Source: Candidatus Omnitrophota bacterium (GTDB lineage: Bacteria; CAIJMQ01). Taken from it: a DNA stretch of 64,000 nucleotides. Positions 5,178 to 48,041 of this stretch are shown piece after piece; positions within the stretch are counted from its first letter, which is position 1; the number at the start of each line of letters is the position of its first letter. The stretch is taken from positions 62,001-126,000 of the forward strand of contig JAHJCU010000003.1 in the NCBI GenBank assembly GCA_018812925.1. The letters run 5' to 3'. The position numbers and the translations under genes were made by a program. The notes below the pieces were generated by a model. It made no database searches. It was not told the origin of the DNA and saw only the letters and a list, made by a program, of their open reading frames with translations.

Positions 5178-5356
5178 CCCCGTTAGAGATAAAGAGAATA
5201 TGTTTGGTTATTTCTTAGGGGTAGTGAAAAAGTATTATTTGCTATACGACCTTTACCGTGTTGCGGTCGCCATAGATACCCTCGGCTTCGCCGAGAGGCG
5301 AGCAATGGCGACCTACCTGCGCCCGCTAAGATTTGGCAGGCGGGTCTCTAACGGGG
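5178..5356. repeat. nested palindromic element (family R outer arms) in the PAP2 leader
   Basis: Outer arms are CCCCGTTAGAGAT (5178-5190) and GTCTCTAACGGGG (5344-5356). Inside is a second inverted pair, GGTCGCCAT (5265-5273) and ATGGCGACC (5305-5313). That pair encloses a third hairpin, CTCGG-CTTCG-CCGAG (5281-5295). A family P palindrome follows at 5316-5344. The same outer arms enclose a different interior at 47384-47448. The arrangement looks like elements inserted into elements. A short open frame across it (5071-5379) is not considered a gene. Confidence 0.75.
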
Positions 5357-6515: not shown

Positions 6516-6896
6516 ATGCATGAAATCTGGATAAAAACGAGTTTTTCGGCTGCTCATCGTTTGCGGGGTTATGACGGGAAATGTGAAAGTATGCATGGGC
6601 ATAACTGGATGGTAGAAGTATTTATTACTTGCAAAAAGCTAAACAAAATGGGGTTAGGGATAGACTTTCTTGAAGTAAAGAGAAAGCTCGCCGAGGTTGT
6701 GGAGAAACTTGACCATAAGGATTTAAGTAACTTCTTTTTGGTTCCTTTTTTCAAGGATAAAAACCCTTCCGCAGAAAATATTGCATATTTTATATATCAC
6801 GAATTGAAAAGTAAAATAAATAGTTCTGGAATAAAACTTTCCAAAGTTATGGTTAAAGAAAGCGAACATAGCGGAGTAAGTTATTTTGAAAGATAA
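6516..6896 (+). CDS. queD: 6-carboxy-5,6,7,8-tetrahydropterin synthase
   Basis: 126 residues. Zinc ligands are His14 in SAAHRL and His27/His29 in MHGHNW, with catalytic Cys23 in GKCESMHGH. A second conserved portion is LDHKDLSN. QueD converts dihydroneopterin triphosphate to 6-carboxytetrahydropterin, the second step of 7-deazaguanine (queuosine) synthesis. QueE follows, separated by a peculiar AT-rich periodic region. AGGAG lies at the expected distance from the ATG. Confidence 0.94.
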   Translation: MHEIWIKTSFSAAHRLRGYDGKCESMHGHNWMVEVFITCKKLNKMGLGIDFLEVKRKLAEVVEKLDHKDLSNFFLVPFFKDKNPSAENIAYFIYHELKSKINSSGIKLSKVMVKESEHSGVSYFER

Positions 6897-6910
6897 ATCT
6901 TTCAAAATAA

Positions 6911-24546: not shown

Positions 24547-25878
24547 ATGAAAGTATTAATTCTAGCGCTTTTCTTTGCCGCATATCTTGGAATACTGTTC
24601 AAAAGAGAATGGGGGCTGTTCTTTGTCTATGGCGCTGTTTCTATTCTTCTGTTAAGCGGAGCTATTTTCCCGCAGCAAATTTTCTCTTTCATTAACTGGA
24701 ATGTTCTTGGCATATTTCTAGGCACGACAATCCTTTCATATCTTTTTATTTTTTCCGGCATTCCTTCTTTTTGGATAGAAAGTATAATAAAAAAAGGATT
24801 TTCTTTACCTGTGTGTTACCTGCTGATATGCGCTTTTACCGGACTTATTTCCACGTTTATGGAAAATGTGGCTACAATTTTATTGATGGCGCCAATAGCC
24901 TTTGAATTTTCGAGAAAACTCAAATTAAACCCTGTGCCTTTGTTTATCGGCATGGCGATTTCGAGCAATCTTCAAGGATGCGCCACTATGGTAGGAGATA
25001 GCCCTAGTATAATCATGGCTTTGGAAACAGGCATGAATTTCAACGATTTCTTTTGGTTAAACGGCAGACCAGGCATATTCTTTTCTGTTCAAATAGGAGC
25101 AATTCTTGGTTATATCGTTTTATATCTATTTTTCAGAAAAATAAACACTCCACTTAAACAAGATTTTTCAAAAATAGAGAAAGTAAACCTCGTTAGAAGT
25201 AAGTCGTCAGAGGTGACTGCCACACCTTTGGTGGGAACTTCTATCAGGGTAAAAAGTTGGTTCCCGCTCCATCTTTTGGGACTATTTATTATGAGTTTTG
25301 CTCTGGGTTCTTTATTTCTTGCCGGAGAATTCGAATTTTATCCGGCTTTTTTGGCGCTTGGATGGGGTATGGTTGGTATCGTTTGGCAGTTGATTTTTCA
25401 TCGCGAAAAAATCTCTTTTAAAAGAGATATCGATTGGGCGAGTTTCTTCCTTTTAGCGGGAATATTTATATTGGTAGGAAGTTTAAATAGCGCCGGAATC
25501 ATAGGGGATTTTTCAAACAAACTGTCGCAATTTAGTTCACACCCTTTTGGTCTTTATAATGTAATTGTTTGGACTTCGGTTCTTATTTCGGGTTTCGTCG
25601 ATAATATCCCGTATGCTATGGCTATGATTTCGGCAATCAAATTGTTAGCGGGTTCTTTAAATCTTTCAGTCTATCCCTATGTATTCGGATTGCTTTTGGG
25701 AACTTGTATCGGCGGCAATATCACTCCCATCGGCGCCAGCGCCAATATAGTTGCAGTCGGTCTTTTAAAGAAAGAAGGCTATCATGTGAGATTTAGCCAG
25801 TTTGTAAAAATAGGATTGCCATTTACTCTTGTTTCTGTAATAGGAAGTTGTTTAGTTAATTGGTTGATTTGGAGATAA
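24547..25878 (+). CDS. ArsB/NhaD-type anion or Na+/H+ transporter (IT superfamily)
   Basis: 443 residues, about 11-12 membrane helices. Motifs resemble the ion transporter superfamily: FMENVATILLMAPIAFEF (the substrate-helix repeat 1), GDSPSIIMALETG, and in the second half FVDNIPYAMAMISAIK and GTCIGGNITPIGASANIVAVGLLKKEG. It faces a second family member on the minus strand with convergent ends 4 bases apart. Substrate (arsenite, citrate, Na+) cannot be assigned. Confidence 0.82.
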   Translation: MKVLILALFFAAYLGILFKREWGLFFVYGAVSILLLSGAIFPQQIFSFINWNVLGIFLGTTILSYLFIFSGIPSFWIESIIKKGFSLPVCYLLICAFTGLISTFMENVATILLMAPIAFEFSRKLKLNPVPLFIGMAISSNLQGCATMVGDSPSIIMALETGMNFNDFFWLNGRPGIFFSVQIGAILGYIVLYLFFRKINTPLKQDFSKIEKVNLVRSKSSEVTATPLVGTSIRVKSWFPLHLLGLFIMSFALGSLFLAGEFEFYPAFLALGWGMVGIVWQLIFHREKISFKRDIDWASFFLLAGIFILVGSLNSAGIIGDFSNKLSQFSSHPFGLYNVIVWTSVLISGFVDNIPYAMAMISAIKLLAGSLNLSVYPYVFGLLLGTCIGGNITPIGASANIVAVGLLKKEGYHVRFSQFVKIGLPFTLVSVIGSCLVNWLIWR

Positions 25879-45853: not shown

Positions 45854-46717
45854 ATGATTATTACAGTCGCAAGCGGCAAAGGTGGAACAGGTAAGACATT
45901 GGTCTCAACCAGTCTTGCTTTGTCTTTGAAAACACCCGTGCAGTTTTTGGATTGTGACGTTGAAGAACCCAATGCCCATATTTTTTTAAAAACTGAGATT
46001 AAAGAGAGAGAAAAAGTTTATTTACCTAAACCAATTGTGGAAGATTCTAAATGTATAGGGTGTGGGAAATGCAGTGAAATCTGTCAGTATAATGCGATTG
46101 CGGTGGTTAAGGGTAAAGTTTTAATATTCTATGAATTATGCCATTCTTGCGGAGCTTGTTCTTTGGTTTGTCCTGAAAAAGCTATATTTGAAGAGGATTC
46201 GGAAAAAGGAATCCTAGAGGGTGGTTACAGTGGTAACATAGAATTCTGGAAAGGCACCCTGACTGTTGGAGAAGCTGCACCCACTCCTTTAATTAAGGCC
46301 CTAAAAAAGAAAATAGATAATAAAAAAACCGTGATAATAGATTCATCGCCGGGTACTTCCTGTCCTATGGTAGAAGCAGTTAATAATTCAGATTTTACAA
46401 TTCTTGTTACTGAACCTACACCTTTTGGGCTTAATGATTTGATATTGGCAGTTGAAGTGGTTAAAAAATTAAAGCTTCCTGTTGGCGTGATAATCAATCG
46501 TTTTGACATTGGAGATGATAAAGTTGAGCTATATTGTAAAGAAAATAAAATACCCATATTGATGCGTATCCCTTTTGACAGAGAGATAGCAGTGTTGTAT
46601 TCAAAGGGGATACCGATTACTCAAGAAAAAAAAGAATATATTAAAAAGTTTCAGGATGCATTTGACGTAATAAATATGTTGCAACAAAAATATAATAATA
46701 AAGCTATAAAAAGTTAA
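45854..46717 (+). CDS. MinD/Mrp-like P-loop ATPase with inserted 2[4Fe-4S] ferredoxin domain
   Basis: 287 residues. Deviant Walker A ASGKGGTGKT (6-15), DCDVEEPNAH, ferredoxin-type CIGCGKCSEIC (about 62-72) and CHSCGACSLVCPE (about 93-105) inserted after the first strands, then IDSSPGTSCPM and TEPTPFGLNDLILAVE. This is the architecture of the ATPases found with orange-protein (ORP) clusters in anaerobes, where they are thought to deliver or assemble metal-sulfur centres. A second similar ATPase follows at 47.1 kb, suggesting a heterodimer. Confidence 0.9.
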   Translation: MIITVASGKGGTGKTLVSTSLALSLKTPVQFLDCDVEEPNAHIFLKTEIKEREKVYLPKPIVEDSKCIGCGKCSEICQYNAIAVVKGKVLIFYELCHSCGACSLVCPEKAIFEEDSEKGILEGGYSGNIEFWKGTLTVGEAAPTPLIKALKKKIDNKKTVIIDSSPGTSCPMVEAVNNSDFTILVTEPTPFGLNDLILAVEVVKKLKLPVGVIINRFDIGDDKVELYCKENKIPILMRIPFDREIAVLYSKGIPITQEKKEYIKKFQDAFDVINMLQQKYNNKAIKS

Positions 46718-47132: not shown

Positions 47133-48041
47133 ATGAAACAAATATTAATAATCAGCGGTAAAGGCGGCACAGGCAAAACGGTAGTAACCGCTTCATTTGC
47201 AGTTCTTGCCAAAAATAAGGTAATGGTTGATGCAGATGTGGATGCTGCTAATCTTTATCTTTTGCTTGACCCCGAAATTAAAAGCACAAATGCATATATA
47301 GGAAGCAAGTCGGCGTTTATTGATGAAGAAAAATGTATAGGGTGCGGAAAATGTGAGCAGATTTGTAGATTTGACGCTATTAGCCCCGTTAGAGATAAGA
47401 CACCTAAGGTATCTGACAGTTGCCTTGAGCAACCTATCTCTAACGGGGTTTATTATATAGATAAATTTGCATGTGAGGGATGTGGTGCCTGTAGGGTTGT
47501 TTGTCCCAAAGATGCGGTAACTTTAAATGAAGAAGAAACAGGTAAATGGTTTGTTTCAGATACTAAATATGGACCATTTGTCCACGCAAAACTTGGTATT
47601 GCTCAGGAAAATTCGGGCAAACTCGTTTCTGTAATAAGAGAAAAGGCAAAAGTTCTCGCGATAGAAAAAAATGCTGATTACATAATCATTGACGGCCCGC
47701 CCGGAATTGGTTGCCCCGTAATTGCTTCCCTAAATGGCATAGATATGGCAATTGTAGTTACGGAGCCATCTCTTTCAGGTATACACGATATGCAAAGAGT
47801 TATAGGTGTTGCGCAGCATTTCGGAGTGGATACGAAGGTTATTATAAATAAATATGATATTAATTTGGAGAATACAAATGCCATCAAGGAAATCTGTAAA
47901 GATAATAAAGTGGAAGTCTTGGGACAGTTGCCTTTCTCTGATAAAGTTCCCCAAGCTATAGTTAAGGGTGTTCCTATTATTGAGTTTTGTAATGACCAAA
48001 TAGCTCAAGATATTATTAATGTATGGGAACAAATAAAATAA
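47133..48041 (+). CDS. MinD/Mrp-like P-loop ATPase with ferredoxin domain and an inserted palindrome
   Basis: 302 residues, paralogue of the upstream ATPase. ISGKGGTGKTV (8-18), DADVDAANL, CIGCGKCEQIC (68-78), CEGCGACRVVC (114-124), then IDGPPGIGCPVIASL and TEPSLSGIHDMQRV. Residues 84-106 (SPVRDKTPKVSDSCLEQPIS plus NGV) are encoded by a 65-base nested palindrome (47384-47448) with family R arms, lying between the two Fe-S motifs; the frame is kept. The insertion adds one extra Cys and probably forms a surface loop. Confidence 0.9.
   Translation: MKQILIISGKGGTGKTVVTASFAVLAKNKVMVDADVDAANLYLLLDPEIKSTNAYIGSKSAFIDEEKCIGCGKCEQICRFDAISPVRDKTPKVSDSCLEQPISNGVYYIDKFACEGCGACRVVCPKDAVTLNEEETGKWFVSDTKYGPFVHAKLGIAQENSGKLVSVIREKAKVLAIEKNADYIIIDGPPGIGCPVIASLNGIDMAIVVTEPSLSGIHDMQRVIGVAQHFGVDTKVIINKYDINLENTNAIKEICKDNKVEVLGQLPFSDKVPQAIVKGVPIIEFCNDQIAQDIINVWEQIK
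47384..47448. repeat. nested palindrome (family R) inside a coding gene
   Basis: Outer arms CCCCGTTAGAGAT (47384-47396) and ATCTCTAACGGGG (47436-47448). The interior has ACACCTAAGGT and GTTGCCTTGAGCAAC dyads. The same outer arms bound the element at 5178-5356. It is 65 bases with only sense codons in the frame used. Confidence 0.8.

Follow-up and report, generated by a model that had tools for sequence, protein, structure and literature searches.

A probable MITE-like palindromic element lying in frame in the ferredoxin insert of a MinD-like ATPase gene from an Omnitrophota genome

The palindromic elements of Rickettsia (RPEs) are in-frame palindromic repeats found in unrelated protein genes, in which they encode a recurrent peptide (Ogata et al. 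2000, reviewed in PMC10969869). The family of repeats analysed here, one copy of which lies in the gene of a MinD-like ATPase of an Omnitrophota bacterium, works like RPEs, which are the closest known case: its copies, too, enter a variety of unrelated protein genes in frame and add a recurrent peptide. The likeness is one of behaviour, the anatomy being different: unlike RPEs, which measure about 150 bp, the family has short fixed 13-mer arms and a 4-bp target-site duplication (TSD), and its copies in genes span 29-122 nt, lengthening the protein by a loop of roughly 11 to 42 residues. Moreover, it occurs in many uncultivated phyla and includes rare longer copies with a GIY-YIG nuclease. Protein-coding palindromes have been reported as a peculiarity of Rickettsia; the present family is far wider, extending over phyla of groundwater and sediment whose genomes are small.

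Other described systems share part of this anatomy. Like MITEs, the family has terminal inverted repeats (CCCCGTTAGARAT) and a TSD of fixed length, its members being small, non-autonomous, present in high copy number and variable in their interior; unlike MITEs, it has no classical transposase partner found, is used recurrently in frame and keeps the same arms across phyla. With REP/REPIN sequences it shares nested hairpins, dispersal and palindrome pairs of about 100 nt, and it differs from them in its 4-bp TSD and in its presence within genes. Finally, intron-less GIY-YIG insertions have been described in the rRNA genes of CPR bacteria, at non-conserved sites and apparently not spread by homing (PMC11270868). 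These insertions and the GIY-YIG homing endonucleases resemble the longer copies in having a small GIY-YIG domain protein within a mobile insertion, although the gene of the present family, unlike those of homing endonucleases, lies between palindromic arms and is dispersed over YNNR tetramers. The CPR rRNA insertions may belong to the same family.

The ATPase copy was found in a 64-kb window (the whole stretch of DNA analysed) of a 1.47-Mb draft genome, G000, whose elements were studied in stretches around the arm sites. The original prediction had described a 65-base element with perfect 13-bp arms and inner dyads, and both features hold: the arms are exactly complementary and nested hairpins are present (Table 1). 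The DNA fold of a 73-nt strand (-19.6 kcal/mol, z = -6.9) has the arms as stem and two hairpins inside; in the second hairpin, related copies of 65-71 nt have a compensatory change from C-G to T-A. Perfect 13-bp inverted arms at most 60 nt apart occur at only three places in the window, and in one of ten dinucleotide-block shuffles. The element was also correctly placed as encoding residues 84-106 (SPVRDKTPKVSDSCLEQPISNGV) between two [4Fe-4S] motifs, the open reading frame being continuous across it. Pfam identifies one Fer4 motif at residues 62-84 of the host protein, and the second cluster region lies beyond residue 107; the frame is unbroken and every Fe-S cysteine is retained. An AlphaFold model of the ATPase alone was set aside (pLDDT 39.5).

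Table 1. Coordinates of the elements, their parts and the ATPase genes in the window
Feature	Position	Strand	Remarks
MinD-like P-loop ATPase with 2[4Fe-4S] ferredoxin insert (host gene)	47133..48041	+	302 aa, intact
Sister ATPase	45854..46717	+	no element here; G001 orthologue filled in frame, +69 nt, TSD TCCA
Palindromic element, 65 nt	47384..47448	+	in frame within the host gene; codes for (S)PVRDKTPKVSDSCLEQPISNG(V)
Left arm CCCCGTTAGAGAT	47384..47396	+	translated PVRD
Right arm	47436..47448	-	gives ISNG on + strand
Inner hairpin 1, AGACACCTAAGGTATCT	47398..47414	.	DNA fold
Inner hairpin 2, GTTGCCTTGAGCAAC	47419..47433	.	DNA fold and related copies
Left flanking tetramer TTAG	47380..47383	+	fits YNNR, differs from right-hand tetramer
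Right flanking tetramer TTTA	47449..47452	+	
Third element, degenerate, 62 nt	25188..25249	+	in frame in permease gene 24547-25878; not in the original prediction
Family member, 179 nt, intergenic	5178..5356	+	common to G001, absent from G002

The arms are widely dispersed. G000 contains 66 arm sites with at most one mismatch (2 in a reversed control), and exact arm sites number 87 and 33 in two other species of the genus, G001 and G002. Some elements are identical between G002 and Candidatus Ratteibacteria STD1_7, and the window is accordingly placed in this group of phylum rank. A scan of a genome collection for both facing arms (CCCCGTTAGARA), 57-117 nt apart, gave more than 119 further stretches from at least eight phyla among the matches listed: Omnitrophota, Ratteibacteria, many Patescibacteria, Desulfobacterota, Planctomycetota, Elusimicrobia, WOR-3/Stahlbacteria and Nitrospirota. 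Across these phyla the arms are constant and the interiors variable. The arms can also serve as a tracer of horizontal spread among uncultivated phyla. One subfamily of 101-105 nt (L063, L069, L125, L021, L121 and L005) has its own conserved interior, TTTAATAAGTTGC...GTTTTTTAAA, occurs in all three species of the genus and is unrelated inside to the GIY-YIG gene. In the literature searched, with subscription journals mostly outside its reach, neither a description of these repeats nor a GIY-YIG transposon was found.

The suggestion that the arms are the mobile or recognised part and the interior cargo fares well in its first half, the arms being fixed across phyla and sibling copies having exact empty sites with a 4-bp duplication; the second half mostly fails, since short copies contain little beyond two hairpins, and applies to the rare gene-bearing copies of 270-314 nt. 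The intergenic element at 5178-5356 had been taken for a quite different one bounded by the same arms. It does carry these arms, though the right one matches at 12 of 13 positions instead of 13, and it rather belongs to this family too, as one of the longer copies. Its counterpart in G001 (C40) is missing 76 inner nt, which shows inner loss at a hairpin with the arms retained.

Insertion has left a clear trace in the flanks. Identical 4-mers border 67 of the 136 distinct elements (10.8 expected from shuffles, maximum 21), identical 2-, 3- and 5-mers being found at 4, 5 and 3 of them, respectively, and the flanking tetramer fits YNNR on 253 of the 272 sides. For the collection loci alone, 77 of 142 have identical 4-mers, as against 11.4 expected. 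Furthermore, two sibling copies form clean filled/empty pairs, each differing by exactly the element plus 4 nt. The permease copy, with its TSD TAAA at 25184-25187 and 25250-25253, faces a 66-nt empty site (62 + 4) in both G001 and G002, whose permeases are 94% and 77% identical. The second pair is given by the sister ATPase, filled in G001 (KEPIH[PVRDKISEVSNGCLGQPISNG]IQFLDCD) and empty in the window (KTPVQFLDCD), the 69 nt being 65 + TCCA; the sister gene at 45.9 kb had indeed been read as lacking the element. The G001 copy concerned (L113:2031-2095, 65 nt) is 87% identical to the ATPase copy.

The TSD of a MITE is thus seen in the 67 and 77 cases above, yet about half of the elements, including the ATPase copy, have unequal tetramers, each side still fitting YNNR, often as TTCA/TAAA or TTTA/TGAA. 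Unequal tetramers are not predicted by a simple TSD model and might come from recombination between copies. An inverted rather than direct duplication was rejected, as 2 reverse-complement pairs were found and 7.7 expected.

These data bear on the idea that the palindrome is an RNA-level or regulatory element (a terminator, attenuator or processing hairpin) repeated by chance. The strong hairpin and the location of the majority of copies outside open frames would suit such a role; the target duplication and the exact empty sites, which show insertion, and the position within coding sequence make it scarcely credible. The evidence supports the view that the palindrome was inserted as a mobile element and belongs to a dispersed family whose copies enter with a 4-bp duplication. 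Taken as a whole, it is highly probable that it is a non-autonomous MITE-like element of the family defined by the arms, the YNNR duplication and the inner hairpins.

Each arm can be read without a stop in two phases, the left one as PVRD or PLE and the right one as ISNG or SLTG, and a copy length of 3n+2 (65, 62, 68, 71 or 89 nt) plus 4 nt gives a multiple of three, keeping the frame. Such copies insert in frame because the PVRD...ISNG phase runs through both arms without a stop and the length plus 4 is divisible by three, and the host protein gains a tolerated peptide, of 23 residues in the present ATPase. No host gene shows the SLTG phase, perhaps because there the next codon would start the tetramer and is often TAA or TGA. 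When an open frame is defined as open for 40 codons on each side of the element, 9 of the 21 elements of at most 92 nt lie in one, in contrast to a single one of the 111 longer elements (Fisher p = 1e-7); each of the 9 has a length plus 4 divisible by three and a translation PVR[D/N/E]...SNG. That a MITE-like family moves and inserts in frame is well supported.

The hosts, named by Pfam, include MutL, PyrD (dihydroorotate dehydrogenase), a LipB-type transferase, TrpE (anthranilate synthase component I), Ogg, HemC (porphobilinogen deaminase), Ppx/GppA, a PD-(D/E)XK nuclease, a radical SAM protein, an indolepyruvate-oxidoreductase-like protein and a B12-binding protein. The in-frame copies would be the survivors among insertions into genes. 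An inserted peptide of one and the same kind is thus tolerated or retained by proteins as different as MutL, dihydroorotate dehydrogenase, lipoyl transferase, anthranilate synthase and porphobilinogen deaminase. The family also offers a natural experiment on how well proteins tolerate added loops.

At the ATPase itself, orthologues without the element exist in G002 and other genomes, and they vary in length at the insert loop. The G002 orthologue (77% identical) has IAEKDEVY in place of the insert, without arms or peptide, and a search for relatives that lack the arms and still encode the 23 residues found none. An empty site equal to the element plus its target duplication, as expected in the original prediction, was obtained for the two sibling copies and not here: the net difference from G002 is +51 nt instead of +69. 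Since the orthologues differ in loop length, the likely explanation is either a short deletion or an allelic difference at the site that is older. G001 was ruled out as an empty site because its orthologue is truncated. Two further features of that genome were observed: both ATPase genes of the pair, at L113 (G001:C3) and L114 (G001:C18), are decayed at the syntenic place, and a separate 621-aa fusion copy of the two ATPases lies at G001:C3:7311-9113.

It could be argued that the insert has been domesticated, as a loop kept by selection because of what it does to the ferredoxin domain, in view of the intact host frame and Fe-S cysteines and of the MutL copy, which G000 and G001 both retain (66/68 identity). 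This identity, however, resembles that of the MutL flanks; moreover, the same peptide appears in the same phase in unrelated proteins, orthologues with loops of variable length manage without the insert, and the G001 sister copy sits in a decaying gene with a P-loop frameshift and truncation. Selection for a functional loop is consequently very improbable. The 23-residue peptide is most likely without function in the ATPase and probably neutral in effect.

The enzyme that moves the family is less certain. Facing perfect arms 262-322 nt apart occur in 14 of 384 Omnitrophota genomes, one of which has four copies, and nearly all of these elements contain a GIY-YIG frame of about 85 aa; further GIY-YIG copies were found in G002 and in a Desulfobacteraceae contig, and no full-length one in G000. 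The assignment rests on Pfam PF01541 (60.9 and 61.1 bits, cut-off 22.6), the match to TIGR01453 being far under its cut-off. The proteins end in ...GKRYLKNRLKRFLSLTG, where LSLTG is encoded by the right arm itself, and in most copies the stop codon comes from the flanking TAA or TGA. The gene is under purifying selection (median pN/pS 0.31 for 91 pairs of 14 copies, with pS near saturation). A homing endonuclease or group I intron was rejected as an account of these copies, which occupy numerous unrelated sites that share nothing beyond YNNR. In one Omnitrophota contig (L150:3773-4160), a full-length GIY-YIG element is itself split by a second palindrome of this family.

The best candidate for an autonomous element is the GIY-YIG form, a plausible and unproven role, because its gene is the only one that facing arms with matching tetramers were seen to enclose, a search of 8-kb loci in a few genomes having yielded no other. 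Its arms are identical to those of the short copies, whose autonomous partner it may be. The short copies could then be internal-deletion derivatives retaining arms and hairpins. As a general origin of the mid-length copies this was rejected: GIY-YIG remnants above shuffles were found in 2 (strict) to 6 of about 59, and in none of the 93-110-nt class. The remnant score of the 179-nt copy, 14.5, is borderline (shuffles: mean 10.5, maximum 16).

That the nuclease of the rare 270-314-nt copies catalyses movement in trans is a possibility that falls somewhat short of even chances. It is weighed down by the absence of full-length GIY-YIG elements from G000 and from the 287 Patescibacteria genomes searched, and by the small number of copies with remnants. 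A stronger proposal, in which a self-sufficient element of about 280 bp with the GIY-YIG nuclease as its sole gene transposes with a 4-bp duplication and drives the cross-phylum swarm of MITEs by which housekeeping proteins gain peptides, can be put forward only tentatively. We know of no GIY-YIG enzyme that transposes DNA with a duplication; if the proposal were true, GIY-YIG enzymes would be a new class of transposase, and they are a clear candidate for new transposition chemistry.

One alternative is a conventional DDE transposase from an unrecognised IS with the same terminal repeats and 4-bp YNNR duplication, the GIY-YIG gene being a passenger. Terminal inverted repeats with a fixed 4-bp TSD are typical of DDE elements, MITEs often outlast their parent, and no 262-322-nt GIY-YIG form was found in 287 Patescibacteria genomes, despite many short copies there. 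Against it, facing arms in the same 8-kb loci were not seen to enclose any element with an ORF that exceeds the GIY-YIG form in size, so that this alternative is to be taken seriously without being probable. An apparent larger transposon in G049 was discarded, the 1.17-kb pair being two halves around a host-like gene with unmatched tetramers.

A Y1 transposase (REP-associated, RAYT/IS200-like), moving the family through single-stranded DNA hairpins as in REP/REPIN, is unlikely. The nested hairpins would fit, and Y1_Tnp genes occur in 6 of 7 other element-bearing genomes tested; yet neither Y1_Tnp nor RAYT was found in G000 (92% complete) or in G043, which has 25 exact arms. In other genomes, unlike repeat-flanked RAYTs, the genes are not systematically bordered by arms, which lie within about 1 kb of only 2 of 20 Y1_Tnp loci. 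Furthermore, single-strand IS200/IS605 transposition leaves no 4-bp duplication, unlike the movement of the present family.

Apart from this family, the window contains at 6881-6910 a perfect 14-bp inverted repeat, TTATTTTGAAAGAT / ATCTTTCAAAATAA.
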